From assembly GCF_035083965.1 (NCBI RefSeq), contig NC_089723.1, positions 5,293,501-5,357,500 on the forward strand: 64,000 bases of DNA, in the 5' to 3' direction. This DNA comes from Branchiostoma lanceolatum (taxonomy: Eukaryota > Chordata > Leptocardii > Amphioxiformes > Branchiostomatidae). Shown one piece after another: positions 3,164 to 64,000 of this stretch. Under the pieces are notes generated by a model. It searched no databases and was not told the origin of the DNA. It worked only from the letters and a program-made list of their open reading frames with translations. The position numbers and the translations under genes were made by a program. How positions within the stretch are numbered: position 1 is the stretch's first letter; the number at the start of each line of letters is the position of its first letter.

Positions 3164-4594
3164 ATGTCCTTGCCAAAACGCTTGGTTGAGCGACTAATCA
3201 AAAAATCTACAAACGAGGAGCAAAATGTGGAGTCAGCATCTCTAGTGAGTATATGACAATTCAACTGCCAAAGTTTTTTTTCCTGTAATATGTAATAGTC
3301 ATAAAAACTTTATTTGGTGTATAATGTGGAGTTGAAATCAGACAATTGGCATGATTTTTTAGTATTTAAAATCTCTTAGAGCAAAAGCTTTAATACTGCA
3401 GCTGAACAGTCAATGTGTTGATGTTTGTTTACCATGTTCATGTTCAAAACATCATTGCTGAAATCTTTTGATTTATAACAAAGGAAGTAAGTCTACTCTT
3501 ATGTCCTTGTTTTGCAATATTCTAATTATATACAGCAATCATTTTACGACTTTTGTTATTGCTTGCTTCAGTGGTCATCTAAGATACTATCTTAGTTATA
3601 AATCTAATATCAACAGTTTTGTTTAGTATAGTGTATATAACATTAGTCTATCTTAACTTTTGTAACAGTTCACAAAAGCAAAGCCAAGGCATTTTTAAAG
3701 TAACGTAACATTTCTGTTTGGATGCATTGCGCATATACATTGCACTCTTATAATTACTTCCCCTTCTTCGCTTTTCTTATGCAGATCTGTGTATTTTGTC
3801 TCCCACCACAGTTCCCCAAGGTCATCGAGTTGAATGTCGGCGGTGTCCATTTCACCACTTCACTCTCCACTCTTCGTAAATATGAGGACTCCATGTTGGC
3901 AGCCATGTTCAGCGGACGTCACAACGTTGTCAAAGACTCCTCGGGCTGTTACTTTATCGACAGCGATGGCACTTACTTTGGCCACATCCTTAACTTCTTA
4001 AGACGCGGTCAACTTCCCCCTTTGGACGTCTGTAAGCAGGTGTATCTCGAGGCTCAGTATTTTGGAATCGAACCCCTTGCGAGTAAATTACGAGAGACAC
4101 CGCCAATCATAGGGGAAAGTCGCAGGCAACATTTTCTAGGACAATTTCCGAACTACTTCCAAACTGTGGAAACGCTGATCCGACTTGCCAGCGAGACAGA
4201 ATATCCACTCAAATCTTCAACAGTTTTGATCTGTTTATACAGAAAGGAACTCGTTGGATATTCAAGACCACACAAACAAGCGAGGTATCTAAAGATGTCA
4301 TCTGAAGACTTAGAGAAGGGAAGAAAGCTATTTAATGTTGATATTCATGTTGCAACGCATGACTGTAAGGAAGGGCATGCCGGAGTGAGTCTTGGACCAT
4401 GGGATGCCGAAATTGAGGAGAAAGAAGTGTTTAAAGTCATCCTTCAGGACCTGAGAAAAAGAGGATATTCAGTTAGAGAGAGCAGTGAAGCCAGGCTGGA
4501 GGTGGGGAAGTGTCAGTGGTCACACGAGTTTGGTCAGATGGCAAAAGTGTCGTGTGGGAAGCACCTCTTTGGAGTTGTTTTTGACTGGTGGTGA
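3164..4594 (+). CDS. BTB/POZ (T1-type) domain protein, KCTD7/KCTD14-like
   Basis: Two coding exons: 3164-3244 and 3812-4594, about 287 aa, close to the roughly 289 aa I recall for KCTD7. Exon 1 ends in phase 0 at a good donor (gtgagt). Exon 2 opens with the T1/BTB domain (residues about 28-125), with the family signature LNVGG, then the STLRKYEDSMLAAMFSG and FIDSDGTYFGHILNFLR segments. The C-terminal half keeps the KCTD7-type body ending FDWW, like the ITWW end of KCTD7. KCTD proteins form pentamers and many act as Cullin-3 adaptors or bind G-protein subunits; the role here is inferred from family only. The start is uncertain: an in-frame upstream ATG at 3074 would add 30 residues. An alternative in-frame acceptor at 3784/3785 would insert 9 residues before the BTB domain. 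KCTD14 or another KCTD7 relative is equally possible. Confidence 0.85.
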
Positions 4595-6582: not shown

Positions 6583-16791
<10,209 letters not shown>

Positions 16792-17141
16792 GTTTCTGTC
16801 TCAATGTGTGAGCATCACGTGCAGTTCTTCAGACCTCGACTGTACCATTGTTATGGGGGGATTACAATATTAAACTTTTTATAAGCACGTTACAACTTTA
16901 CTATATGACTACAAAAGAATACAAAAAAATATTCAGTACGCATAAATTTTATTAAATTATAAATTGTTCTTCAAACTAATGACAAAGCTATATAAAATTT
17001 ACACATTCTAATTTTTGGCCCCCATATACAAGGTCCGTACGAACTGTACGGACAGTTCAATGACCCCGTTAGGGATAGGGATCCTTTATGACCTTTATTT
17101 ATGCAATGGATGTAACGTTATATACATGTTTCATGTAACAT

Positions 17142-18811
17142 CCGCCGAAGCAACTCCTTGGCAGGGTTATGCTTTTGCTGAGCATTGGTCAGGTGAAGCT
17201 TCAGTTGAAACGTGTCAACCCCCGCAAAGCGACTGGGGGGGATAATGTACCCCCTTGGCTGCTGACAACCTTCCACGAGGAGCTCGCTCCCATCCTGTGC
17301 CACATTTATAACAGCTGTCTTCAGGAAGGAACCTTCCCACGGAAATGGAAAGAGGAGATGGTTGTCCCCGTACCAAAAACATCCAAACCGAAAGGTCCTG
17401 AAGAGTTTCGTCGGATCTCCCTGACTAGTTGCTTTGGTAAGGTGTTGGAGGTCTTTGTCCAGGAGCTACTGCTGCGGGACGCTGGTGACAAAATTCTTGA
17501 CTCACAACACGGTTTTAGACGGGGCAGATCCACCGTCTCAGCCCTTATTCAGACAACACAAGCATGGCATGACGCCCTGAACGCCAATCCTAAGATGGAC
17601 GTTCATGTGGCCTTTATAGACTTTTCACGCGCCTTCGATACCATCGACCATGGGAAGCTCTTGTGTAGCCTGGCAAGGATGGGCATAAGGCGGAATCTCT
17701 GGTCATGTATCTGCAGCTACCTGAGTGACCGGAAGCAGCGCGTGAAATGGGGAGGAAGTGTCTCGGAGTCGCGGCCTGTTCTGGCTGGCACACCCCAGGG
17801 CGGTATAGTGTCGCCAACATTATTTGTGATTGCCATGAACAACCTGGATGAAAACATCCATCCTAGTGTCATCCCAGTTAAGTACGCTGATGACTTAACT
17901 AACACAGAGTGTCTGATGGGATCTCTCCCTGGCCTGATGCAGTCGTCCATGACTGCTGTACAATCATGGGCAACGTCGTACAGCATGGAGGCAAACGCGA
18001 AAAAAACAAAAGACATGATAATTAGTTGCAAAAAAGTCCCGGTTAATCCCCCACCACTCACGTTAGCTGGTCATGCAGTTGAAAGAGTAACAAAATTCAA
18101 GCTTCTGGGTGTCACTGTTACCAGCGATCTCTCATGGGACGAGCACGTTAAAGGCATAATCTCTAAGGTACAACCACGTATTCACTACCTACGCCTTGCT
18201 AAGAGGGCCGGGCTTCCCTCCGACTTACTGCTGAATGTGTACGTCTCATTCATCCGGCCTATTATGGAGTATGCATCGCCTGTGTGGGGTGGGCTCCCCA
18301 AAACTCTATCGAGTGAGCTAGAGAAAATTCAAAAACTCTGCTGCAAACTCATTGGCATTAAACACCACAAACTCCCCACCCTACAATCCAGACGACACGA
18401 AGCCTCTGTACGCGAGCTGCGGCGGATCCTGGACGACCCCACACATCCCTGCAGACAGTTCCTGCCCCCGGTAGTTGAGACAACCTACAGCCTCCGTAGA
18501 CATGTGGGGCTGAAACCACCAATCAGCAGGACGAACAGACACAAAAACTCTTTCATTCCGAGAACACTGTTATCTATGATGTGATGCCCGCCAATTACTC
18601 TATGCCCACGTTGTCATTTTTGTAAAATAATTTTAATCTGAATAATTGATAAATAATGGTGTTTTTTTAACTGTAATATGCTACTGTATTAAATTGTTTG
18701 TATACTATTATTACTATGTAAAATCAATGCAATTCAGTCCTATGGACTGCAATTTTGATTTACAATAAAGTTCTAAAGTTCTAAAGTTCTAAACCCCCGC
18801 CGAAGCAACTC
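17142..18811 (+). mobile_element. CR1-type non-LTR retrotransposon, 5'-truncated, with 15-bp target duplications
   Basis: A 15-bp sequence, CCGCCGAAGCAACTC, occurs at 17142-17156 and again at 18797-18811, directly bounding the insertion. The inserted body, 17157-18796, begins inside the reverse transcriptase region (5' truncation) and ends with three tandem TTCTAAAG octamers at about 18773-18794. A short 3' tandem repeat instead of poly(A) is characteristic of the CR1/L2 lineage. A CR1 element has been reported from amphioxus (BfCR1); I cannot test identity here. Confidence 0.88.
17169..18584 (+). CDS. Reverse transcriptase, C-terminal part of a CR1-like LINE ORF2
   Basis: An open frame of 471 codons with no internal stop. 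RT motifs in order: RKATGGDNVPPWLL near the start (the conserved KAxGxD block), an HGFRRGRST block, FIDFSRAFDTIDH with a catalytic Asp, AGTPQGGIVSPTLF, and the catalytic KYADD box. A thumb-like region follows and the C-terminus reads NSFIPRTLLSMM. The endonuclease and N-terminal RT segments are missing because the copy is 5'-truncated, so it cannot mobilise itself. The first in-frame ATG is incidental. The uninterrupted frame points to recent insertion. It lies upstream of the protease gene, in opposite orientation. Confidence 0.92.
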   Translation: MLLLSIGQVKLQLKRVNPRKATGGDNVPPWLLTTFHEELAPILCHIYNSCLQEGTFPRKWKEEMVVPVPKTSKPKGPEEFRRISLTSCFGKVLEVFVQELLLRDAGDKILDSQHGFRRGRSTVSALIQTTQAWHDALNANPKMDVHVAFIDFSRAFDTIDHGKLLCSLARMGIRRNLWSCICSYLSDRKQRVKWGGSVSESRPVLAGTPQGGIVSPTLFVIAMNNLDENIHPSVIPVKYADDLTNTECLMGSLPGLMQSSMTAVQSWATSYSMEANAKKTKDMIISCKKVPVNPPPLTLAGHAVERVTKFKLLGVTVTSDLSWDEHVKGIISKVQPRIHYLRLAKRAGLPSDLLLNVYVSFIRPIMEYASPVWGGLPKTLSSELEKIQKLCCKLIGIKHHKLPTLQSRRHEASVRELRRILDDPTHPCRQFLPPVVETTYSLRRHVGLKPPISRTNRHKNSFIPRTLLSMM

Positions 18812-23577: not shown

Positions 23578-25409
23578 TTATAAAGTAGTCTCCCGACACC
23601 GATCAAAGTTTTGTCTGAAACTCGCATTTCCCATGGTTATAAAAGATAGAAACGTAATATCATCATCATCGTCATCGTCATCATCAGATGGCAGCATCAC
23701 TTGTATGTCCGATCCTCTCGCCTGGTGAAGACCGCGGCATTCCTTCGCGAGAATTTTCACGAAGTTAGTGACATTCTTGTTGAACACCACGTAAACACAG
23801 GTGTTTATGACACTGTTTCCCATTGCTGCTGCCTCCACTGCATAGAAAATATTAGTGTTGTGAGAAGTGAGAGTAAGAACATGGTGAAAGTCTCTAAGTG
23901 CAGCGTAGACATAGTACGGAGCCCAGCACAACACGAACAGAGCAAGGATCAGAACTAGGCGTAGTGTTTTCTTCTTAGACCTCTGTACTTTTTTCCTCAT
24001 CGCATCTGTTAGATATCCAGGTAGCTCTCTGTGAAACACTTTCCAGACTACAGGTAGTGAGCACACGGCCATGATAACCACTGGTAGAACGAACTGGAAC
24101 GCCAACATACTGCCATAGTACCCCTTGTAGGTTGTTATGTGTCTGACATGCCATACGACCCCGCAAAAGGAAGAACTCTGATGGAAGTGCGGCTGTACTG
24201 TAGAGAACTTTGCTGAAGGAATGGCGATGAGGAAGGAGGTGATCCAGACACCGACGGACACCAAAATGGCGCCTGTTCTTCCCACACGCCGCCACCGGTG
24301 ACGAACTATAGTTATGTATCTAGAATAACAAGAAAGTTCCTTCTATCATGATACAGCACTCAATACTCCTTGTTGACAAGCAGACCTGGTATATTTCTAC
24401 AGGTAGCGGTGCTAGCTCTTTAACGTTCTCTAGGCTAATCTCCAAGCAGATCTATAGGTTGCATAAAGACCGTATCAAACTGGCAGAGGAAGTACGTTTT
24501 GCAACTTGGATTGCATTACAAGCTCCCTCTTCCAGTTGGATACGGTCTTTGCAATCCATTGGGTCTGGTTGGAGACTACTTTAGGCACCTCCTCAAACAC
24601 AGTACCCCCCTTTTACGTCCCTTCCTAAAGACGGGTGCAGCCCAGACCGAAATGTCCAGACCCAGGATGGCCCTGTTAGAAACAAAATTGGAATCAAGAC
24701 CTCAACTGTGAGGCTGCTATAGGGATATCCCAGCTAATGCTTCGGCCATTTACAATCCTGGGCCCGGCCCGGCCAGCTTGTGGGAACGAAAAACAGGATA
24801 TACAAGACAACAAAAGACACAAAACGTAAACAAATACTAATAATTGTGTATTTTCGGGATATGCATTTTCTATTTTTCGTTTTCGCAAACAGCCCGGCCG
24901 GGCCCCGGATTGGAAATGGGACCGAAGCATAAGGAGGCTACTGACTTTTCGTATTACCTGTCAATCGCAATGACCACCAGAGCGTTGGTCGACACGTGAA
25001 GAGACACCATCCTCACATAGTTAACCAGCGTGCAAAGTTCCCCTCCATACCGCCAACCTCCGGCATTAATAACATAGTAGTCAAGGCTGAATGGAACGCA
25101 AAGTATGGCCACGACAAAGTCTGAGAGCGCAAGATTGGCGATCAGCAGGTTTGTTTTAGTCCTGGTTTTCTTGAAGCGTCCTATGACCACTAAGAACGCC
25201 AGGTTTCCCACACCACACACTATAATGATGAGTATGTAGACTGCCCCAAGAGCCACACGGAATGATATAGAAGCATAATGGAAAGTGTGGTCATGAGGTG
25301 CGTCTTCTTGTCCAAGTAAATCATCGAAAAAGTCATCATATGCATACAGGTGGTCATACAGGTCACCGTAAAGGTAGTCTAGGTCAATTTCCGTGTTGTT
25401 TCCATCCAT
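23578..25409 (-). CDS. Prokineticin-receptor-like rhodopsin-class GPCR
   Basis: Two coding exons: 24958-25409 and 23578-24319, 1194 nt, 397 aa. The start at 25409 follows a splice-acceptor-like tract (TTTTTCCAG), so a 5' UTR exon probably lies upstream. The N-terminus is acidic and Tyr-rich with an NNT glycosylation site at residues 4-6. Seven hydrophobic segments are visible. TM1 has the conserved GN. TM2 carries TNLLIANLALSDF and TM3 has VSLHVSTNALVVIAIDR followed by Y (the DRY-type motif, split by the intron). ECL2 has a Cys, TM6 has CWAPYY, and TM7 has NSVINTCVY, replacing the usual NPxxY as vertebrate prokineticin receptors do. The TM2-TM3 and TM7 segments fit that family best, so Gq-coupled peptide signalling is likely (inference). 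The tail has a run of ten Asp from an ATC/GTC repeat. Confidence 0.88.
24431..24590. repeat. Degenerate member of the TAATCTCCAAGCAG element family
   Basis: The left end, CTAATCTCCAAGCAGATCTAT at about 24435-24455, is intact; the right end (GGTTGGAGACTA near 24575) is diverged. Internal inverted segments include ACCGTATC opposite GATACGGT. Part of the interior, CCAGTTGGATACGGTCTTTG, recurs at about 45012-45031 beside another GATCTGCTTGGAGATTA end. It lies in the intron of the receptor gene. Confidence 0.6.
24738..24929. mobile_element. MITE with TGCTTCGG ends, possible PIF/Harbinger type
   Basis: The left end TGCTTCGGCCATTTACAATCC is mirrored by GGATTGGAAATGGGACCGAAGCA on the right, each extending into a GGGCCCGG block. 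TAA flanks both sides at 24735-24737 and 24930-24932, as expected for PIF/Harbinger insertions. A related copy with a degraded left end lies at about 45630-45793 in a GLUT-like intron, showing that the family is dispersed. Confidence 0.65.
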
Positions 25410-26058
25410 GATGATCGTCTGGAAAAATAACACAAATCTTCCGTAATTTTTAATCAAATAAGTTGATGTATATGGAAAATCGCTCTCGCTATGCTATTGA
25501 GTATGTATTGTAATGTAATGTATATGAACATAAGTACAAAATGTAGTATGAACGTTGGCAACAGGATTGAATAAACAAAGAAGGACATATGTGGTGCAAA
25601 ACAAAAAGGGCATATCGATCGTTAAAGTGCTTATGACACCAAAATACAACATTTTCTTATTATCTGTAATAGGAATAGTATCATTCAATGAATATAAACG
25701 TTTAAAACAAATACACACCCTTAATGATGTTATTTAACATCGAACCATCAGAAACCATACTTCCAGCGCTTGATTCTTTTCTGATCTTCCCACCAGGTAA
25801 TTACATAAATCATTCACTTTACCCCTCATGACGTCACAATGAAGAAAATAAATACTGTTATGTCTTTTAATCGAATGTAATCACGATAATTAAGCACTGT
25901 TTGCTATCCAAATAATGTTTTTCTCAAGACTAGTAGGCAACGTCGCGGACCAACTCCCAACCATAGATGAACTTCATGAACTTGCCCACGACTAACTCCC
26001 AACCATGGTCTGGGGAATGTCAGGAGGCCATTGTGAGCTACCAGGATGTGTGACAGGA

Positions 26059-35404: not shown

Positions 35405-38400
35405 TCACTTGAAGGTGAGCCAGTTGCTGGGGTTGTGGATGAGCATCTTGTCCACCTGGTCCTGTGAGATTCCCCTGGCCAGCATCATGGGCACCACGTT
35501 CAGCAGGATGTGGGAGTAGCCGTGGCCGCCGTAGTGCATCTGGAAAAGTCAGATGATTACAAATCATCATTTGTTCAGTCTCAGAAATTGTCAACTAGCA
35601 TGTATACTCTACAAACGTGTGTAGATCAAAATGTTGTAAGACTAAGCAACATATTAAATCTATCTAATGATATAGTGCTTTGATTCTTACACCAGCACTG
35701 GTACTTTGATAAGACTTCTCTATAGATTAATCCTATCAAACATCAAGAATTCATCCAGGCAGAGGACAAAGAGGAAATGTTTCAACTTGCCTTTAATGTT
35801 ATTTTTAGCCAAAAACAAAATACTGCCAAATCTGTACAAGTGATAATCTCTAAATAAGGACCATCTGGCCAATGTAACCACTTTTTGGTGCTCCCTTGTA
35901 TAATTTTTCCCATTGATACAAGTACAAGATTCCTGTCTATAGTGACCACCTGTCAATAGATCAGATTTTGTCGCTTCCAAGTGGTCTCCTTGGGCAGTTA
36001 TGACTGTATCCACATTAAAAGATTGACATTGTCCACATACCAGCCTATGTTTGGTGTATAAGTCGTGTGCGATCACCACACGGTCCTCGTAACCCTCATC
36101 CAGCACGTGTTTGATCATCTTGATACGCTGGGCATCGCTGGGCATGTCAAAGTCTCCCAGCTGATAGTACGACACCTCGATCCCAAACAGGTCCAGCTCC
36201 ATGATGCAGCCAAGCTTTGCAAACTCAGACAGCTCGCCATGATCACAGATCGTTCCTGGATAATAAGAGAAAGGGAGAGGCAGAGTTTAGCATGGTAGCT
36301 CATCTGTGTATGAGTAACCATACTAGTCTCATACACAGATGATCATACATTGCCATTGGCCCGGTGTGAGTAACCATAACAGTCTCCAGATTTAAACCCA
36401 GGTGAGAATTTCTGGTTGGATCTAAAGAGAGCAGTTGCGGTACATAGACCTTAGAAAATTGCTGAGCTGGAGACAGGCCATTGCCCTCGAGAAATGGGTC
36501 AAAATTCCCAAAGAGCACTACCAGAAGCTTGTGACAAGCTATCGTTCAAGTCTACATCATGTCATTGCAGCTTTTAGGTAAATAGGTGTGCTGCACGAAG
36601 TACTAAAGACAGACCTTCATGGGGGTTTGAATAATTCTGCAACCTGCTTTTTGTGCAAAAAATGGATCATGAAAAAATCTTGACTTTTGCTGTGATATCA
36701 TATTGTAATAACATATCTATTCATCAGTTATGTGATTTAGTAATATTCTGCAGTTGTAATGTTCCTCAATTTGCCAAAGTGTCCAAAATGCAAGGGGGTT
36801 GAATAATTTTGCATGCAGCTGTAATCTTCCACCGTTCGTGACAGAGAGGACAGACGCTATGTACAGTATTTTCAGTTTAATTGTACCGGGGAAATTCCCT
36901 TAGCTCTTTTCGACAAGCACAATGAACAATGGACCACGGCTTAACATCTTGTCCTAAGGACTGCGACCCTTCCTGGTAGTCGGGTGAGCGACACAGCTGG
37001 ATCAAACCCGGGGCTTCTAGTTCCAGAGACAAGATCGCTAACCACTGGACTACCCATGCTACAAGAATGATGATAAAGAAAACCACCAAAATAACGTACT
37101 GTCGAGATGAGACATGACAGTCCTGCTGATGTCGCCCCCGGCCTCTGCCAGGATGCGGATGACCTCTGCCGGCGCCTGTTTGTTCCGCCCGGGGTGGATG
37201 ATGACGGGGCAGCCCAGCTGGGTCTGAGCTGCAGCTGTGGCCTGAAGAACCTTCTTCTCCGTTGCTATGGAGACAAAGAAAGATGTTGCAGTCATAGAGA
37301 ATGATAAAAAAGGTCTCCATATTGCAATGTCAGTCATAAATTAGGTATCGTTGTGTAATATTTTCTTACCATCATATTTTGTTCCTATACACAGTTTCTT
37401 GTCATTTTTCAATTTGCAAACAAATCATGTGGTATGGCTGAAGAAATGAATATGATATGATAGTTTTACTAGGGCTACTACTACTGAAGAGTTACATTCA
37501 CCATCATCGTGCACTGTGAACCTTTTAAATGTGTGTACCTTAGGTTTACACCTTGTTTGCACTAGACGGCAATTGCCGAGCGACCATGCAGTGGTCAAAA
37601 TTGGAATATGATGCAAGACGTTAAAGTTAAAAGACAATAAAACAAACAAAACGTTAAAAAAATTTGGTCGCCCAGCAGTCACAGCCTCTAATGGAAAGGG
37701 TGTGTTAATGATTCGATTATGGCAGTCATATACAAACCTGTGACTGGCCAGGATGTTCCAATCTCTCCAATCACCCCACACCTGATGCTTGTCCCCGCAG
37801 CCCCCTGGGTGATGTCTTGGATCATGGTAGAAACCAGCTGTTCCTGAGTTGCACTGTGTACGTCTTGTGGAAGTGCAGCATCTACATAGTAACCTGGGGG
37901 AAGAAGAAAACAACACTTATTTTAACTGTAACAGTGGGGTTCAAGTGCCACTAACTGACCAGTCTAACTGGTCCGGACCTTTAAGCCTAGCGGTTATGGC
38001 GTGCGGCCTGTGCGCTGGCGGGCCCAATCCCCTGGAGCTAGGAGACTGTGCTACTCACACCTAGTGTTTCACAACCTTCTCCCTACTGCCTATCCTGGTA
38101 ACCAACGAAACTGGTGCCAAAAGACTACATTAGGAGGTTGAAAGTTAAACAATCAATACAAAGACATTAAGACATTCAAACTCCTCAAAAGAAATATACA
38201 GCAATGACAAATCTTGATTGATACACTTGCTATCCTAGATCCTGCATGGAGTGACAGTCTCCTTTTGTTATCTATATTTCTTTTTCACATTATCATTCCC
38301 TGGTTTCTCAGTCTTCTGTGAATCAGTGCTATAGTATTCATGAGTTTGGCAAGTTGTACTTTCTTGATTTCATTCCCATATTGGAAATAAAGAATGTGAT

Positions 38401-41400
38401 CTCAGAACAGTTTAGTTCACTGAAGAGCTAATCTTCCACTGGTGGTGACAGAGAAGACAGACACTATATACAGGTCAGTTCATTGTACTGGGTAAATTCC
38501 CCTAGCTCTTTTCCATTGTACAATGAACAGTAAACCACAGCGTAACTTGATGTCCTTAGAACTGCAACCTTTTCCAGTAGCATGCTTGTCGGTTCAGTGA
38601 CAGCAGTTGGGATTCAAACTATCAACATTTTGGTCCAGGGGCGTTGTCGCTAACCACTGAACTATGCACGCAACTTGCATACTTAGAGATGGATGTTCTT
38701 TCCTATCATTACCTGTTCCAGAGATGATGTTGACCCCAGACTCCTCTGCCATTCTCTTCATCATGTTCATGTCCCTCTCCAGACCCACAATGGTACATTC
38801 CACCATGGAGGATCCACCATGCTGTTTAAAGAACTTCAGCTCTTCTATCACATGCTTCTCCTCCCCATACAGAGTCAGGTTGGGCTTGTAGCTCCACCTA
38901 GGGTAATAAAAAAATCAATTAGACAAACAACGTATGTTCACCCTGGGTGAAAATACCTGTTGTACGACGTGGGGGTCAATTCACACCCAGGAAAAAAGGT
39001 GATGTACATCTTAACGTCGTTGTCGTATGTCCAGACAATTTTCCAAGTGTGTATCGGGTCTTAAACTAGAGAGACTCTTTAACTTAATTTAACTGCCTTG
39101 ATTATATCAAATGTTTGAAGCTTAGCTAATTATAAGGACAATAATGTATGACAGGGTTTTTTCTAGAAAAACTAAACAAGAGGGAGCACACACATGCAAG
39201 GGAGCAAATTCTATGTATTTATGGATGAATTGATTGCTGAGTGAAGGCTGAATGCTGGATATTAAGCTAAAATCTGAATTTGACAAGGGGGCGCTGGGCT
39301 GAAACAAGAGGGTGTAGCGCCCCTCTTTCCTGATTTAGATGAACCCGTGTATCAATCAGATAGGTTGTTGATGGCTGTTATATGATCTTCAAGCAATTTT
39401 CAAAGACCTTGGATAGTTATCATCAATAGCTGTGGAATTGACCACCTGGATTGGATACACCTTGATTTTCCGTTTCCTAATCACCATTATACAAATAGAG
39501 CCAAAAAGCATAGTTTAGACTTACATGTGAGCCATAGTAAAGCCGCAGTACACTACCAGCTACTGACAAAGTAGATCTATCGGTGGTTGCTTTTGCCCTT
39601 TGGATACTGTTGTTGCCACTAATAGATCTGCTTGGAGATTACTGACAAAGCATTACGCTTCGTCTCAAGCAAAATCCATTATGCTTCGAGTTTGACTGAA
39701 GGAGAAGAAGAGTTAGATGTAAGCAGCTGCATAAGCCTACTAGTAGATGCTGTTATGTGCACCGCCATGTTGGGCCATGGTCATGCTGCAGTATATCATA
39801 ATGCAAAGCCATGCAACTAGTCTGTATAACGCAAACTCCAGCTTTCCGGGGGTTTATGTCCCCTGGCCGGTTACGGGCGGCTGACTACAAGCGCGATTAA
39901 AATCAGGCTAGCCATGCAACTATATCTACAGCAGTTGCTCATACAAAAGCAAAAACACACAAAGCCACAACTGTTGACTTACGGGAACTGCCTGATGAAT
40001 CCCAGGTTCTCCATTGTGAAGGGTAGGCTGTTCATGTTTGGGAGGAACGAGGGGCAGGGGACGTTAGCCCCCAGGGGGGAGGCATCGATCATGAGGTGCT
40101 CATGGGTGAGGGTTCGACCGAGCTGGGAGGGCTCGATAGGTCCCAGAACTGAAAAGCAGAGAGAAGCTCATTAGGAGTATAATGTAACGTGGCAGGTTTT
40201 TATGCTGCAATTTGATGAATGGGATTGTTTGGTATAATATTATAAAGATACTGTGCCTATAATACAAAGGTTATAAATAATAGCATACAGATGTTTTCCA
40301 GTCTATTCAGTGAGCTTGTATTTCTCAATTCATTGACACCTATAAATCCAAAAAAGGTAGTGCAAAGACAGAAATCACCAGAATGAAAAAATACCTTATA
40401 AGCCGAAAAATGTAGTAAATTATTAAATACAAGGCCATGGTGACTACCCACCTTGCAATTGTATTTTCGATGAAAATTGTCACAAAAGGCAAGGCTGTCC
40501 GTGCTGTCTTACTGTGGTTGAAATATCAGACCAAATTACATGCTGTACATACTGGTGAAAAATCAAGGTTGCAGTGTTTTTGGTTTGAGACTTGGCCACT
40601 TTTAACCTGGAATAAAGGATTGAAAGTCTCCTGAAAGTCTGTCTGTAATGTGAACCAACATTTGAGTGGTGCAACAAATTAAAATGCTGATATTAGTGAT
40701 AACATTGAAAGTTTGCACTGGAAGAGTCCAAGAGTAGAGTAGAGTAGGGCAACTTTTAGCTTCACCTTTTGCCCGATTTATTTTCACGTTTTGCCCGATT
40801 TATTTTCCAAGCAGCTCTCACCTTTTGCCCGATTTATTTTCCAAATAGATCTCACCTTTTGCCCGATTTATTTTCCAAATAGATCTCACCTTTTGCCCGA
40901 TTTATTTTCCAAGCAGATCTCACCTTTTGCCCGATTTATTTTCCAAGTAGATCTCACCTTTTGCCCGATTTATTTTCACGTTTTGCCCAATTTATTTTCC
41001 AAGCAGATCTCACCTTTTGCCCGATTTATTTTCCAAATAGATCTCACCTTTTGCCCGATTTATTTTCCAAGCAGATCTCACCTTTTGCCCGATTTATTTT
41101 CCAAGTAGATCTCACCTTTTGCCCGATTTATTTTCCAAATAGATCTCACCTTTTGCCCGATTTATTTTCCAAGCAGCTCTCACCTTTTGCCCAATTTATT
41201 TTCCAAATAGATCTCACCTTTTGCCTGATTTATTTTCCAAGTAGATCTCACCTTTTGCCCGATTTATTTTCACGTTTTGCCTGATTTATTTTCCAAATAG
41301 ATCTCACCTTTTGCCCGATTTATTTTCCAAGTAGATCTCACCTTTTGCCCGATTTATTTTCCAAGTAGATCTCACCTTTTGCCCGATTTTTTTTCACGTT

Positions 41401-49800: not shown

Positions 49801-52800
49801 ACCTAGTAGTCTGTTAGTAACTTTTTTATGTGTATATCCTCTGTCATATTGATTTTGGTTTGATTATGTTTGTTGGTAAGGTAGTGCCTGAGTTAGATGA
49901 ATTAATAAAGAATGAAAATGTGTTTCTAGTTCACAGGTCAGCCCAACGTGCTGTACTATGCACCCACGATCTTCCAGCTGGTTGGTTTCCAGAGTAACAC
50001 AGCTGCCACCCTGGCAACTGTTGGGCTTGGTATTGTGAAGGTGAGAACCAATAACATCCGGATGTTGAGAAAATAACCATACATTGTTTGTATATGTGTG
50101 TGACAATGCAAGACAATGAGACTTCAATACCGATCGGAAATATTTCTTAGAAAGAAAATATTTCTTAGAAAGAATGTTGCATGTTGTGCTTCGTCTTTTG
50201 AATAACTAATAAATTGCTAGATGCACCAACTGCTAAGTACCAAATAACAGCTCAGAAAGGAACAGTAGTAGTAGTAGTATAAACCTTTATTTTCCTTGGA
50301 ACAAGAAGTAGTCATGCCTTCAAGTGCCAGAGTTATTAACCCAGGATAGGAGGTGTTCAAAAATGTGTTTTTCACTAGAAGTGTCATACTCATAGAGTAG
50401 AACTAGTTGCCAACAAGTACTGTGGGGGCATCCTCATTGAATAGCTTAAACAACGCTTGCAGCTAGATGTGCAAAGGTTAGCTGTGACAGGTCGTTCAGC
50501 ATAATATAACCAGCTGCTGTTGTACTGTGTGCCTGTGAAGCTGGTGTGTTATGCCAAAGGATGGTTATACCGGCTATTCAGATACATATTGTGTTACTTT
50601 ATAACATCAAGTTTACAGTATTTTATTTTGTTTTCTCCCAGGTCTTGTCTACTATAGTATCTCTCTGCCTTGTGGACAGATTCGGACGTCGCAAGTTCCT
50701 CCTGGCTGGTGCAACCATCATGGCAATAAGTATCCTCATCCTAGGAATCATCACCCACTCATTTCCAGCCAGCAAGTTTAAGAGACCGTGTGAAAGCGGA
50801 AACGATACTTTAGGATCCACTCACACTAGAGACGTTTTTCCTGGGAACTTTTTTGAACCCAATTTGCAGTACAGAAATCCTTCTGCAGTCACATCTCCAG
50901 TAATAACTGTACCAGGAAGTCATGAGAAGAGCAAGAAGTTGGTCTGGACACCACATGTAGACTTTACCAGGAGATCAGAAGCACATCTTTTTACCACAGA
51001 AAAAGTTCTGCAGAAGCGTTCTGACAAAGATTCTAGTGTAGAGTTTGTCCATAATGAGACTGGGTTAGATGGGACAGAGTTTGATGTGATGGTACCAGAT
51101 GGAGCGAAGGGGATTTCCCTGCTGACGCTGATGGTGTTTGTGGCAGCGTACGCCTTCGGCTTTGGTCCAGGTAAACATGTTACACTCAACAGTTTGTTAA
51201 ATTTAAGGCTTGATGTGACAGTCTTCTCCTGTTTTTCACAGTTGAATGGCTATTTTGACTATGCATTTGTACGAAGCATGCTATGTTTGAAGGTTTGGTT
51301 TTGGTGTGTCTGTTTGTTTGCTTGCTTGTGTGTCTATAGATGTTTGAATGCAGAAGAGTGTCTGGTTTTCATATTCTAGGCATTGTCGATACACTGACAG
51401 GAAGTTAGGTCAACGGTCCCTGAAAGGTCCCAGAATAGATTATCTCATTTGCTGTCGCAGGTTTGTTGCTATGTGCATGCCTGTTGCCCTATGAGAGCCA
51501 GTGGGAAAAATGCATTGGACAGAGTCAGCTAGAAATTCATGATCAAAAAAGAATAAAACATGAAATTTACAAAAACTCTAAATATTTCACGGAACTATGA
51601 GAGCTGTGATTTCTTGTTAACATGTTGTTGTTAATTACCTGTCCTCAGTATCTTGGCTGGTTCTGAATAGAATGAAAAATTAACAAAAACTAAAAACATT
51701 TAGTATGAGATATTTTTTATTTCTTGTTAACGTGTTGTTGTTGTTCCTGTCCTCAGTATCTTGGCTGGTGCTGAGTGAGATATTCCCAGTGAATGTGAAG
51801 GGCCGTGCTGTAGCCCTCACCACTGTGCTGAACTGGGGAACAAACCTAATCGTGTCCCTGTCCTTCCTAAACCTTGTGGGTAAGTTGAAGCTCTTTACTG
51901 TTTAACAGAATTATGCCGACATGTACATGAGACAAATGTGGTGCATGGTAGGTACTGTATTTTATTAAACCGGTGTCCTAATATTTTGAAATGTTGCTTG
52001 TCTGGCATGTTACCTCGTTTTGATATTAATTGTTAAGGCAAAGGTCTTTTCGATGGTTGTTGTAGCCTCAGAAACAGAGCATTAGGAAGATCAGCTGAAT
52101 GATTGAATAAGCAGCCTCGTGCACAAGTACTACAATGTGTCTGTTATTTAGACTCCAAACACTGATATACCATTATGCAATACAAAATAAATAGATTGAT
52201 TGAGAATTTCAGTCTCTGATAAGAATTTATCCAGTAACAGTTGCTTGATTTGTTTTATACTACGTTATGGTCTAACTATATGTTTAATCTTCATTGACTG
52301 ATACTGCAATGTTCCCACAGAGTCAGTGGGTCTGCCATATACAATTAAACCTGTACAAGTGGCCACCTCTACCTTAAAACCACCTGGCCAATGTGTCCAC
52401 TTTTTGATGTTCCCTTAATAGATAATTTTTCCCATTGACACAAACATCAAGAATCGCGTCCACAGTGACCACCTATCCACATAGATCAGATTTGATCAGT
52501 CCCCTGAGTGGTCTTCTTGGGTAGGTTTGAATACGAAATGTTCTCGTATGTCTAAGCTTCATTGACTGATACTGCTACTGATACAACAATGTTCCTACAG
52601 AGTCGGTGGGGATTTCTGTAGTGTGCCAGGGGTATGCAGTGATGGGTGTGCTTGCTGCTGTCTTCATCCTACTCGTGGTTCCTGAGACCAAGAACAGAAC
52701 TCTGGAGCAGATCTCTCACGACCTGGAGACCCGGTCAGTCACAAACTATTGTAAATGCAGAAATGTTTGCGGTGGTTTTATGACTATTTCACCGCAAACT

Positions 52801-58652: not shown

Positions 58653-58833
58653 CTACACACCAAACATTTTCTTAACGGTGTATCCAGGCATAGAATACAG
58701 GATCAGTACAACGAAAGCCAGCAGGATGAGAGCTATGATTACCTTGATCAGTAACCATTTGTAATTTGCCCACACAAAGTTCCACAATAGTTTGATGGGC
58801 ATAAGGAACCACATAGCTGACGAATCCGGGCGG
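58653..58833 (-). CDS. Ferlin alternative terminal exon 5 (membrane anchor)
   Basis: 181-bp exon: acceptor TTCAAG, one nucleotide of a split codon, 59 further codons and a stop. It encodes RPDSSAMWFLMPIK, a juxtamembrane NYKWLLIK, a hydrophobic segment of about 20 residues, and a short luminal end YSMPGYTVKKMFGV. This is the C-terminal anchor architecture of ferlins, closest in ending to otoferlin as I recall (YSxPGYxVKKxxGA). It lies only 91 bp beyond the stop of the neighbouring exon at 58925, so these two probably share a 3' UTR and poly(A) site. The C2-domain body lies outside the window to the right. Confidence 0.88.
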
Positions 58834-58924
58834 CTTGAATAATAAGTCAATGATACAAGGGTGAATTCTACAGTTAGAATTGAACAGTACTTGATTAGAA
58901 TTAAACAGTACTTGATTAGAATTA

Positions 58925-59105
58925 CTATACATTGAATATTTTCTTGATAGTGTACCCTGGCATGGAGTAAAACAATAGCACGAGGAACGCTATGAGGACC
59001 AGCGCCAGTATTACCTTTATTACCAGCCATTTGTAATTTCTCCAAAGGAAGTAGCAAACCGCTTTGATTGGCAAGAGGAACCACAGAGCAGAGGAATCCG
59101 GTCGG
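58925..59105 (-). CDS. Ferlin alternative terminal exon 4 (membrane anchor)
   Basis: 181 bp with the same entry phase; acceptor GTTCTAG. The product begins RPDSSALWFLLPIKAV, then a WRNYKWLVIK juxtamembrane stretch, a TM segment, and ends YSMPGYTIKKIFNV. It is most similar to the exon at 58653, suggesting that pair arose from a local duplication. The terminal Asn replaces the Gly found in the other four copies (FNV against FGV or xGA). Confidence 0.88.
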
Positions 59106-59672
59106 CTAGAACAAGAAGCGTTGGAATATGAAATGTCTGTCCTGCTGCCGCAAAACCTAACTTGGGAAAGCACCTTGGCTTTGGCAAGGCACCAGGTTGG
59201 GTTTTGAGTGATTCAAAAATACCTAACTTTGGAGATTGGATGTACAGCATACATTTGTGCTAGCTTTAATTTTTTGTCCTCTTGGAATATCCTTCTTTTG
59301 TTTAAGGAAGACAGTGGACTTTTGGAAGGCTTGAAATATCAGCATGGAAAATTCTTCGATCTCTGCAGACAGAATGATGGCTTGTTCTCCTTATGGTTGA
59401 TAAAAATGACTAACACAGAATTTTACATTGAAGTCACAAAAATATTTAAAAACTTCACCAAACATCAAAAGTCCACAAATTTGGACAAAAAAGTCTTCCA
59501 GACAAAATAAGTAAAAATAATTTACAATCAAATCTAAAACATGCTGGTTTCCTCCAACCTTACTTAATTCACATTTTCCATCTTTGCGGCACCTGGGCAT
59601 TAGTTTTAGACTCAAACCTTCAAAAGGAACACCTAACCACGTCTTTCGTTGCCATGCCGATCTTACTAATGC

Positions 59673-59853
59673 CTAAGCACCGATCATCTTTTTGGTGAGG
59701 TATCCAGGCATAGAGTAAAAGAAGAGAACAAAGATGGCCACCACGCAGAGGATGACAACAAATTTGATGATGAACCACTTGTAGTTGCGCCAAATGAAGA
59801 ACCAGAGCTGCTTGATAGGGCCGAACACAAACGCCATAGTGTGGTCGGGGCGG
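59673..59853 (-). CDS. Ferlin alternative terminal exon 3 (membrane anchor)
   Basis: 181 bp, same phase; acceptor CTTCACAG. It encodes RPDHTMAFVFGPIKQLWF, WRNYKWFIIK, a TM segment rich in Val and Phe, and ends YSMPGYLTKKMIGA. It is the most divergent of the five: SSALW is replaced by HTMAF, and the TM composition differs. Splicing to it would change the residues next to the last cytosolic C2 domain and the anchor itself. Confidence 0.88.
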
Positions 59854-61414
59854 CTGTGAAGAGAAACAAAATAGGACATGTTAGAAATGTAACATTACGT
59901 TGTAGATGATGAAGATGAAAGCATACCCTGTCTGACAATGTTGAAGGTTTAGTGAGCTTCTTTTTTTTCTTCTCATTTTTCTTCAAACAAAATTATTATT
60001 GTGAAATGTTAAGAATATTTGGGACATCTATGCTGTGCCAATTATAAATATTTGGGAAATTTATTTGGTATCAACAGCAGGGAGGGTATGCTTAAGTTCT
60101 CCTAGGACAGTATCCTTTGCTTTTTTGTGGGTGAGACCAATGAGTTACCAAAAGTATGATTGTCATACATTAAAAAAATACTTTTTTGTTAAATTTCAAA
60201 AAAAAGTTCATATTTTTCCAACCGAACAACAAAGGCTCAGTTGTCATACTTTTTTGTCTGCAAGAAAGAATAGTGTCCTTGGCAGACAAGGTCATCCTCA
60301 GAACTACACAAACGTTAAATACAATAAACATCACTATATTGCACAGACAACAATGCATGCTACGTGTACAATGCACACTCTCTCATGCAGGAACAAGCAA
60401 GCATTGAAATAAAAACGTACACAGTACAATATCCTTTCTCCATGCCAAGGGAAAGGAGTATGATCAAACTTGAGTGAAAAACAACACCAGCATTCAAGGA
60501 TATAATGATTGACAACACGCGACATTAGACTCGGCCTACATGCAGTAGTAGAGGATAAGCTCAGACAAGGGAAAAATCAAACTGAGACCAAAAATCACAA
60601 AGGAGTCTCAGGTCCAAATACATGGCTTAGCGTAGCTGTGCATGATCTGCTTGTAGAAAATGATTCAGGATGAGGGTATGATGGGGGTTACAGTGGAGTG
60701 GATGTGGATCTTGTAACCGTCTCTTCATACATAGTAACACATGGTGGGAAACAGAACCACCAATGTCCTGATGAGCAGTTCAACAAGTCTACAAATAAAT
60801 TCAGGCAACCCGGTTGTTCACTGACTTTGGTGATCTCAGTTCTTATTTTCCATGTCAAAGGATTTTTGTCTAGGGGATTGGGACATAGAGCAGCTTTTTT
60901 CCGGAAGGCACAAACTTGACGGTAGATTCAATATTTTCTGTTTTGAAGACATTGGGGAAGCAAAGCCCAGTGTCTGGGCATCCGAGTTTTCGAAGCCACC
61001 CAGCGAGTCATTACCGATATAGGCTCAGTTGCTAACTCACTGGTATTACGATCCGTTCGCTGTCCAATCATTCAAGAGAGAACATTGGGAGATCTGTATG
61101 TGCACTACACATGAAGAGAGGAGAGTACAACCAAACCATGGAGAACGGAATTTGAACCTGAGATGGTCTGTGTGAATGGTAACATAAAGGAAATGATGCA
61201 AAGGTCTCTAGCTGTGAGAACATAAACATGCTTCGTCCAACTGCCATTTCTTACAGCATGAAAGGCAGGGATTGCATGCAACACCGATGGTGTTATTACA
61301 GTGTGAACACTTATGATGAGGAAGAAAATGCATAGTAGGGATGTGAGTTTTTTTTAGAAGTACTCAGTTGTTGCTACCTATGAGATTTGTAGGTACAGGA
61401 CAACTTAGAGTGAT

Positions 61415-61595
61415 CTATGCTCCCAGCATCTTCTTAACCATGTAGCCAGGTGCAGAGTATAGGAGCAGGCCTATGAAGGCCGCGAGAAGTAAGACGCAAA
61501 GAACTTTGATGATAGTCCACTTGTAATTCTTCCACAAGATGTACTTGAGAGATTTGAGAGGGCTCAAACACCACAGAGCCGAAGAGTCAGGTCGA
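61415..61595 (-). CDS. Ferlin alternative terminal exon 2 (membrane anchor)
   Basis: 181 bp, same phase; acceptor TTGTTCAG. It encodes RPDSSALWCLSPLKSLKYI, KNYKWTIIK, a Leu-rich TM segment, and ends YSAPGYMVKKMLGA. It is the close sister of the exon at 63015, with about 25 nucleotide differences by eye. Its acceptor and upstream 120 bp have been copied twice more further upstream (61660-61900), without the coding part. Confidence 0.88.
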
Positions 61596-61654
61596 CTGAA
61601 CAAAGAGGACAAGAGAGAATAGAAAAAGACCAATAAATACATTTGTCACAAAAT

Positions 61655-61905
61655 TCTTTTTTTTTTAGTTTTAGGTAGATTTCTGGTGCTCAATCAGCCA
61701 CTGTTCTGGTCTGCAACATCGACTGAACAAAGAGGACAAGAGAGAATAGAAGACCAATAAATACATTTGTCACAAAATTCTTTTTTTTTTAGTTTTGGGT
61801 AGATTTCTGGTGCTCAGTCAGCCACTGTTCTGGTCTGCAACATCGACTGAACAAAGAGGACAAGAGAGAATAGAAGAAGACCAATAAATACATTTTTCAC
61901 ACAAT
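61655..61905. repeat. Tandem intronic duplications of a ferlin splice-acceptor region
   Basis: The segment CGACTGAACAAAGAGGACAA and its following sequence (AAATACATTTGTCACA, a poly-T run, TAGATTTCTGGTGCTCA, TCTGGTCTGCAACAT) occurs three times in tandem with a period of about 130 bp, starting from the acceptor of the exon at 61415. The coding part is not repeated, only the region starting at the acceptor side. Confidence 0.85.
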
Positions 61906-63014
61906 TCTTGTCTTTTTTTCTGTTTTGGGTTAAGATTTCTGGTGCTCGATCAGCCACTGTTCTGGTCTGCAACGTTCTGTCTCTTGTTGATAGAGAAAGA
62001 GTTCTTTCTTGGTCAGAAGAAGAAACTGGTTGTGTGTTTGTTTCGTTTTACTCAAAAGCTCAATGCAGGGAAGAAGTATATGGCAAAGAATAGAGATATG
62101 ATCTTACAAAGTCTTATTCTGAAGTTTGTGATGTCCAAATTTAATGAAGTCTACTAAAACAGAACGTTCAGTGGTTTTAGAATTTGGGGTCAGCATTTTC
62201 TGAGAAATCTGTGATACTACAGGGTCATTGATACACCTGTCATTCAGCGGGAAAATCTATCAGCCAACGAGTCTGCAAGCTTTAAATGACATATTTAGCA
62301 GAACTATCCAGCTGGTATTTTCTCGATCATTGAGAAATTTTCAGAGATCAGCCAATGTTTGCATGTCCCCTGGCCACATCTACATGTAATGTGATAGAGT
62401 TGATTTTCAGGTGCAAATATGCTCGACTTTCTGGCAATTTTGAGATTTGGTGACCTTCTGGCTCATCAAGTGTAGACAGGGCCATTAGGGGCAGTCTTTC
62501 TTGGCTAACGTTTCATCAAAAGGCAAGAAGAACAACAGGGCAAAACCTACATCTCCATTGCAGATCAACAAATATATAGCCAAAGCTTGTCAACTGCCTG
62601 ACAGGGATTTTAGGGGCATCCTTTCTGGGCTAAGTTTTCATGAAAAGACATTAGAGGCAGCAGTCAAGTCAGGTTTACAGGGCAAAATCTACATCTCCAT
62701 TGCAGCTCTGACTTGCAATTTCAGGTGGTTCTACATGGATAAATAGTTGTGATGTAGAAAGAGTGGTGAAAAGTTTATGACTCAGTGATCTGTGCTGTGA
62801 AATAATCAAGGGATGCATCAAAATGAAAACCAACAACTTGCACATGCACCATCTCTTTGTTGTGCCCATCTCTTAACAACTGTGCTTCTGGTTCTCTACT
62901 CACAATGCTCAAAAGAAAAGGAACCTTGCTAGAACAAAGAAACGCTGGAGGAAAAGAAATCTCAGCTGGTATACTTGTACCTATCCTGTCTACATGTAGT
63001 AGAGTACACACAGC

Positions 63015-63195
63015 TTATGCCCCAAGGATCTTCTTAACCATGTAGCCGGGCGCAGAGTAAAGGAGCAGGCCTATGAAAGCCGCGAGCAGTAAGACACAAA
63101 GGATCTTGATGATCGTCCACTTGTAGTTCTTCCATAAGATGTGCTTGAGAGATTTCAGTGGGCTCAAGAACCACAGGGCCGAAGAGTCAGGGCGG
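63015..63195 (-). CDS. Ferlin alternative terminal exon 1 (membrane anchor)
   Basis: 181 bp, the first met by a transcript entering from the right. The acceptor CACTCCCAG has a pyrimidine-rich tract. It encodes RPDSSALWFLSPLKSLKHI, KNYKWTIIK, a TM segment and YSAPGYMVKKILGA, the copy most like the vertebrate otoferlin C-terminus as I recall it, including PLKS and VKKILGA. Ferlins are tail-anchored, multi-C2-domain, calcium-dependent membrane fusion proteins. The upstream exons are outside the window; no further ferlin exon is recognised in 63196-64000. Confidence 0.9.
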
Positions 63196-64000
63196 CTGGG
63201 AGTGAGGGAAGGAGGGAAAGAAGAAATGAAGGTATGGGGACGTTACAACAGGTTGACAGTTATGTGAGTTTGTAGACAGAGAGATCACATGTGGTGTAAG
63301 TGTAGCAAATGAAGTGGGGTTAGTTGGAGTATCTCAGCTGCAACGATGCGTGATGACGATGCTGTATGGACGATTGACAACTAGTACTGTAACAGCATAA
63401 CTGCATTGTGTACACATGTTAAGGAGGGAAGGTGGGCCTGGTTGTACAGGTGAAAATGACAATAGTTGATAATTTTACTTCATAATTGTGAAAAGAATGA
63501 CGGAGGCAAATCAAATAAGTCCCACTTCTTTAGTTGTCAGCTGTGAAGGGCCACATGTACATGGCAATGTTGGGAGGAGTTTTTGAGTGTATGATACACA
63601 AATTCAAATTGCACAATCAGCTATTTCAGTGAAGCATTTGGACCTAAGAAACCTTTGGCATTGATAGCTTGTCTGTTAAGGGTGGGATTATTCCACATGT
63701 CAAGATAATGGGTGAAGGGAATTCGAAGAAAGATCACAGGAGGGCATGAGGTAGGGAAGAGGTGTGATGGTGGTTTTGATTTCTTTTGATCTGTCAGAAG
63801 TACATCATTGTCCTTTAAGATATGTATGTGATGATTAACACCAATGATGTGTGCACGGTTTAGTACTTGAAAGACGCTGCTGTAGGGAGACAGTAATGAT
63901 AGTTTTCAGCTCTGCACGTAAAACAGTAAGGAGAGACAACAGACGACCACACAGGTCGTTTTTGTACAGACAAAATTGAACACCACGTTTGCAGCGGTCT
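63196..64000. other. Probable ferlin intron, right edge
   Basis: No exon is recognised. The region should be the intron preceding the terminal exon array of the minus-strand ferlin gene. Confidence 0.5.

Follow-up and report, generated by a model that had tools for sequence, protein, structure and literature searches.

Five same-phase ferlin anchor exons in tandem, very probably alternative ends of one gene, in the amphioxus Branchiostoma lanceolatum

Ferlins are a family of membrane-fusion proteins. Vertebrates have six ferlin genes, and the type II ferlins are the non-DysF, otoferlin-like ones that group with Fer1L2/4/6. A ferlin consists of several tandem C2 domains followed by a single C-terminal transmembrane (TM) segment, as described in excerpts of PMC2923515. 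In otoferlin (OTOF), in humans a hearing gene, the last 60 residues are specified either by exon 47 (brain) or by exon 48 (cochlea), which encode different TM segments (excerpts of PMC10394277 and PMC7768390). The stop codon of exon 47 leaves exon 48 untranslated, and the two forms differed in their distributions in HEK293 cells in work cited in the excerpts of PMC10394277. Here, we describe a tandem array of five exons encoding ferlin C-terminal anchors in a stretch of 64,000 nucleotides (nt) of Branchiostoma lanceolatum (contig NC_089723.1, positions 5,293,501 to 5,357,500; hereafter the window). These very probably serve a single ferlin gene as alternative last exons, which swap its membrane anchor. 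A first reading made from the letters alone (the sequence-only reading) had proposed such an array and had named otoferlin as a precedent; this precedent is real and closer than it had been put, exons 47 and 48 being alternative 60-residue anchors (excerpts of PMC10394277).

Three Branchiostoma floridae entries are given in excerpts of PMC2923515, in whose main text the word "alternative" does not occur, and the passages of PMC7140416 at hand mention neither amphioxus, lancelet nor exon 47. Among the matches listed from the open-licence literature (titles and starts of abstracts), there was no report of a ferlin with three or more anchor exons or of an amphioxus ferlin array, and otoferlin tail peptides had no match in the open-licence literature.

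The five exons are numbered in the order of transcription:

63015..63195, minus strand: putative alternative last exon 1; reads RPD...KKILGA, with its hydrophobic core at 27-45; stop codon TAA; Ferlin_C E-value 6.9e-13
61415..61595, minus strand: putative alternative last exon 2; shares 55 of 59 residues with exon 1; stop codon TAG; Ferlin_C E-value 3.5e-12
59673..59853, minus strand: putative alternative last exon 3; the most diverged, six aromatics in positions 27-46, TAG stop; Ferlin_C E-value 7.2e-11
58925..59105, minus strand: putative alternative last exon 4; shares 41 of 59 residues with exon 5; stop codon TAG; Ferlin_C E-value 6.8e-11
58653..58833, minus strand: putative alternative last exon 5; closes the array and has the weakest acceptor (AAG); stop codon TAG; Ferlin_C E-value 9.7e-10

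Each exon is exactly 181 nt long, stop codon included, and the order from exon 1 to exon 5 runs from high to low coordinates (63195 to 58653), with 1419, 1561, 567 and 91 nt between successive exons. Every exon is preceded by AG, the acceptor triplets being CAG, CAG, CAG, TAG and AAG for exons 1 to 5, and all are entered in the same phase: one nucleotide (C, T, C, C and C, respectively) finishes a split codon and is followed by 59 codons and a stop. Exon 2 is entered with a T; as this base stands third in its codon and NNT is always synonymous with NNC, one donor could serve all five exons and yield the same residue. The encoded proteins align without gaps over 59 residues, and 22 of the 59 columns are invariant. 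The coordinates, the 181-bp length, the common phase, the Arg-Pro-Asp start and the separate stops given in the sequence-only reading were all confirmed. The array thus has the features of otoferlin-type ends, namely homologous same-phase exons of about 60 residues, each with a TM segment and its own stop. A frame continuing into a shared exon, which would mark mutually exclusive internal TM exons, was found in none of the five, all of which end in their own stop.

The searches for array members took in the whole 64 kb, and no sixth copy was found. When a profile of the five exons was run against 2886 six-frame pieces of at least 15 amino acids, the five were retrieved at E-values of 1.2e-33 or less, and all others among the matches listed, sorted by E-value, had E-values of at least 0.09. 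Three tblastn matches (59509-59426, 50971-50897 and 33964-33911) were considered as further copies; they were short, with E-values of 0.015-0.039, and were taken as chance.

All five ends matched the Pfam family Ferlin_C (PF16165) with 39.0-49.2 bits, over the curated cut-off of 29.4 bits, which bears out the ferlin identity that had been read from the letters. The matches spanned positions 99-154 of the 154 in the profile (99-153 in the case of exon 4). Other Pfam families, such as Wzz and Synaptobrevin, matched weakly (best E-value 0.011), and those for which scores were given among the matches listed fell under their cut-offs. Among solved structures, the five-exon profile retrieved, besides dysferlin (PDB 9b8k), three SecE chains with E-values of at least 0.39. 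Identity to two unsourced human otoferlin ends was 23-36 of 59 residues, against 17-23 of 57 for dysferlin; an otoferlin-like type of the ends is thus hinted at by these unsourced peptides.

By hydropathy, the best hydrophobic 19-mer lies at residues 27-45 in all five ends (mean Kyte-Doolittle value 2.76-3.38) and 14 residues remain after this core, giving the tail-anchored layout of a single TM segment near the C-terminus that had been expected for each exon. The core is preceded by an invariant collar, NYKW. In the tail that follows the core, 7 of the 14 residues are invariant (Y46, S47, P49, G50, Y51, K54 and K55), with the pattern YSxPGYxxKK, and the exons vary mainly in the core, in the linker and in the final few residues. 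The earlier suggestion that the luminal tail is swapped along with the anchor is weakened by these invariant residues. A structure model of the exon 1 end, built from the five-row alignment, has helices at residues 7-22, 24-47 and 50-58 with moderate confidence (predicted local distance difference test, pLDDT, 73.0; predicted template-modelling score, pTM, 0.39).

Purifying selection had also been suspected, and the ratio of non-synonymous to synonymous rates (dN/dS, or omega) supports it. Over the whole set, omega was 0.075 under a one-ratio codon model, or 0.065 with wider bounds, and omega = 1 was rejected with twice the log-likelihood difference (2dlnL) at 111.5. The two omega values come from our own implementation of the codon model, which reproduces the IQ-TREE likelihood at omega = 1. 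Exons 1 and 2 differ by 18 synonymous and 4 non-synonymous changes (dS 0.58, dN 0.03, ratio 0.053), and exons 4 and 5 have a dN/dS of 0.10 at a dS of 1.99. Values of 0.40 and 0.55 were obtained for pairs 1/3 and 2/3, and in most other pairs the synonymous sites are close to or past saturation. When sister exons at one locus were given equal mutational time (the sister clock), neutrality was rejected for each exon, with 2dlnL of 21.0, 25.5, 6.2, 27.9 and 32.0 for exons 1 to 5 (p = 4.5e-6, 4.5e-7, 0.013, 1.3e-7 and 1.5e-8), exon 3 being the weakest. The clock is nearly free in likelihood (lnL -770.16 with it and -769.79 without it). With free branch lengths, omega = 1 was rejected at about the 5% level for exon 1 (2dlnL 3.91) and exon 3 (4.95), joint neutrality was rejected for pairs 1+2 (35.2) and 4+5 (33.5), and the 2dlnL for triple neutrality was 6.37 for 2+3+4 and 4.43 for 2+3+5. 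If the clock is assumed, there is good evidence that exons 1, 2, 4 and 5 are constrained, and fair evidence that exon 3 is.

Protein and DNA trees separated exons 1 and 2 from the rest (bootstrap 97) and joined exon 4 with exon 5 (bootstrap 85), in agreement with the two pair duplications proposed in the sequence-only reading. Neighbours in the array are thus closest relatives, as predicted by tandem duplication. Exon 3 had been regarded as an older, outlying member; this is contradicted by its grouping with exons 4 and 5 when the tree is rooted with dysferlin, though at a bootstrap of only 77, which suggests a long branch on the 3-4-5 side rather than the root. Exons 3-5 differ from exons 1 and 2 at 39-44% of positions. 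In a tree that included the unsourced human otoferlin ends, the five exons clustered apart from both (bootstrap 85; the order of the human two had a bootstrap of 40), a lead that hints at separate expansions in this array and in otoferlin. The flanks (250 nt on each side) showed no similarity between copies with blastn-short at an E-value of 0.01; the only matches listed were the 91 nt that separate exon 4 from exon 5, which belong to the flanks of both, and one match of 13 nt. Aligned without gaps, exons 4 and 5 stay similar for about 13 nt into the intron.

Several observations weigh against a single ferlin gene with alternative last exons. Within 63100-64000, a ferlin domain was found in none of the 16 minus-strand open pieces of at least 25 amino acids, none of which matched the first 98 of the 154 positions of the Ferlin_C profile. 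In the 805 nt of the window that remain upstream of exon 1 (63196-64000), no GT scored above -0.1 on our donor scale, which, like our other splice-site scores, is crude and was built from unsourced frequencies. With neither an upstream ferlin domain nor a convincing donor found there, the shared last exon presumably lies outside the window, and membership of a single gene is inferred from spacing and phase. On the crude score, the acceptor of exon 5 reaches only the 73rd percentile of AGs on the minus strand. The polyadenylation (poly(A)) hexamers AATAAA and ATTAAA number 1, 1, 1, 0 and 2 after exons 1 to 5, where 1.43, 1.68, 0.87, 0.20 and 2.32 are expected; being at about chance frequency, they lend no support to separate poly(A) sites, and own poly(A) sites were dropped as an argument for separate ends. 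If the clock is not assumed, neutrality is not rejected for exons 2, 4 and 5 singly (2dlnL 1.07, 1.38 and 1.27), because synonymous changes can be absorbed by the sister branch, nor is it rejected jointly for 2+4 (0.36), 2+5 (0.92) and 1+4 (1.14). Synonymous saturation between the groups and some very long fitted branches make omega rough, above all for exon 3. A DUF7419 match of the upstream piece 63863-64000 (E-value 0.0049; 17 bits, where the cut-off is 27) was taken as chance.

These clock-free results, together with the weak acceptor of exon 5, would suit an array in which only one or some exons are used, the others being relics that tandem exon duplication left behind and that are still to decay. 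In addition, 22 neutral substitutions left 37.6% of 2000 simulated frames open, so that an open frame alone is little evidence for exon 1 or exon 2. However, the sister clock rejects neutrality for every exon at almost no cost in likelihood, neutrality of both members is rejected for either pair, and the high synonymous divergence within the pairs indicates that they are not recent copies; we regard undecayed relics as unlikely. It is extremely unlikely that allelic copies were placed end to end in the assembly: exons 1 and 2 do agree at 55 of 59 residues, but even this closest pair, with its dS of 0.58 and 18 synonymous differences, was judged too distant for two alleles or an assembly duplicate, which was rejected on that dS; moreover, the flanks of the copies are dissimilar and exons 3-5 are far from exons 1 and 2. 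Since no ferlin body is found in the window, the exons might belong to separate ferlin genes or be stand-alone short membrane peptides. This is very improbable, as the spacings leave scant room for ferlin bodies, and no exon opens with a start codon, each being entered in mid-codon after AG (the frames were not examined for start codons farther upstream).

A variant concerns the mechanism of alternative last exons rather than their existence: the upstream exons might be cassettes with a donor behind the stop, spliced to a common terminal exon, as exon 47 of otoferlin is described in the excerpts of PMC10394277, with exon 48 left untranslated. Candidate donor GTs lie past the stops of three exons, at about 110 nt for exon 1 (score 2.8) and exon 3 (2.5) and at 375 nt for exon 2 (3.0); all three score higher than 1.73, the 95th percentile for GTs on the minus strand. 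In contrast, no comparable donor was found from the stop of exon 4 onwards on this crude scale (best -0.9, with better sites inside the exon), and cassettes are a doubtful possibility. Exon 4 is separated from exon 5 by the following interval:

58834..58924, minus strand: gap between exons 4 and 5; 91 nt, contains a 21-bp tandem repeat, no AATAAA or ATTAAA

As the gap holds neither hexamer, an exon 4 mRNA would probably run through, with exon 5 as 3' untranslated sequence, and the choice between exons 4 and 5 would then be made among acceptors and not among poly(A) sites. Elsewhere in the array, the letters do not decide among own poly(A) sites, run-through and otoferlin-style cassettes. The 21-bp repeat comprises 2.4 copies (58874-58924) and stands right behind the exon 4 stop.

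In the 17 positions before the acceptor, pyrimidines number 16, 15, 14, 13 and 12 for exons 1 to 5. By chance, five values would fall strictly in order once in 120 cases, and the pattern was noticed post hoc with crude scores; the T counts alone (5, 10, 11, 7 and 9) do not fall in order. A real gradient would make exon 1 the default choice, and the use of later exons would need repression of earlier ones.

A repeat adjoins exon 2:

61592..61973, no strand: 124-bp tandem repeat, 3.0 copies, running into the start of exon 2

The repeat unit includes the acceptor of exon 2 and the first four exon bases, and two extra exact TTCAG|TCGA acceptors are thereby found upstream of exon 2; exons spliced at these would start at 61846 and 61722. 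Read in phase from these acceptors, 18 or 16 residues are followed by a stop, with no membrane segment. The unit was not found elsewhere in the 64-kb window (blastn, E-value 0.001). The repeat may be a minisatellite without consequence, or it may offer a way to make an unanchored protein.

The reading that we favour, a single ferlin gene with a choice of last exons, would work as follows. The ferlin body would lie beyond the upper edge of the window and be transcribed from high to low coordinates, and the donor of the last shared exon would be spliced to one of the five same-phase acceptors. The stop of the chosen exon would end the protein, and the other exons would be skipped if upstream or left untranslated if downstream. 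With each choice, the same cytoplasmic C2-domain body would receive a different single-pass tail anchor, made up of an RPD linker, the aromatic and basic collar NYKW, a hydrophobic core of about 19 residues and the short YSxPGYxxKK tail. The choice of anchor would alter the target membrane of the calcium sensor or the membrane with which it works. Between the two TM isoforms of N-cadherin, no difference in subcellular localisation was seen, according to excerpts of PMC2655722, and this cautions against assuming that anchor swaps retarget a protein. We tentatively suggest that one ferlin calcium sensor with five selectable anchors might serve several compartments or cell types from a single gene, that the choice might be made by competition along graded acceptors, the strongest first, and that the duplicated acceptor before exon 2 might add an unanchored soluble form. 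As a natural series of five apparently constrained anchors, probably borne by a single body, the array could show which anchor residues decide targeting, and it bears on the question of whether anchor swapping predates the expansion of the vertebrate ferlin genes.

Other features of the window include a reverse transcriptase frame of 481 codons (17139-18581, plus strand; RVT_1 E-value 1.1e-31), probably of a retroelement, and a rhodopsin-type receptor in two pieces (23581-24342 and 24957-25493, minus strand) that match successive parts of 7tm_1. Pieces of a KCTD/BTB gene (3704-4591, plus strand), a papain-family protease (7392-7685, minus strand), a phosphotriesterase family member (two pieces, 35723-36286 and 38597-38914, minus strand) and a sugar transporter (50510-51376, plus strand) were also found, as were overlapping frames of a short repeated peptide (40743-41281, plus strand), probably a minisatellite. 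The Rfam scan at gathering scores gave no match and the tRNA scan found none. Pattern searches for relatives of the array gave 94 matches in viral_contigs and 38 in genome_contigs, none of them confirmed, as expected from collections neither of which is an animal one.

Compared with described systems, the encoded ends resemble the C-terminus of dysferlin (PDB 9b8k; five-exon profile E-value 2.1e-11) in the RPD start, in P12, K14, W21 and W26, and in the position of the TM segment, but they differ from it in sequence (17-23 of 57 residues identical) and in the tail, where dysferlin has PNYAAMK and the array PGYxxKK. As in the exon 17 pair of Drosophila Dscam and the exon 18 pair of N-cadherin, duplicated exons would swap a TM segment by splicing (excerpts of PMC1397879 and PMC2655722); those are mutually exclusive pairs with two members each, whereas the members of the array are ends with stops. 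The joining of a common body to one of many alternative 3' ends recalls Drosophila mod(mdg4), for which more than 30 isoforms are given in excerpts of PMC12692577. The closest likeness is to exons 47 and 48 of otoferlin, alternative C-terminal exons that each have a TM anchor and their own stop (excerpts of PMC10394277 and PMC7768390). Otoferlin has two such members where this array has five; its exon 47 is described as skippable and is followed by exon 48, and tissue use is reported for otoferlin in the same excerpts. The two-ended arrangement is thus known from otoferlin, and this array would enlarge it to five apparently constrained members.

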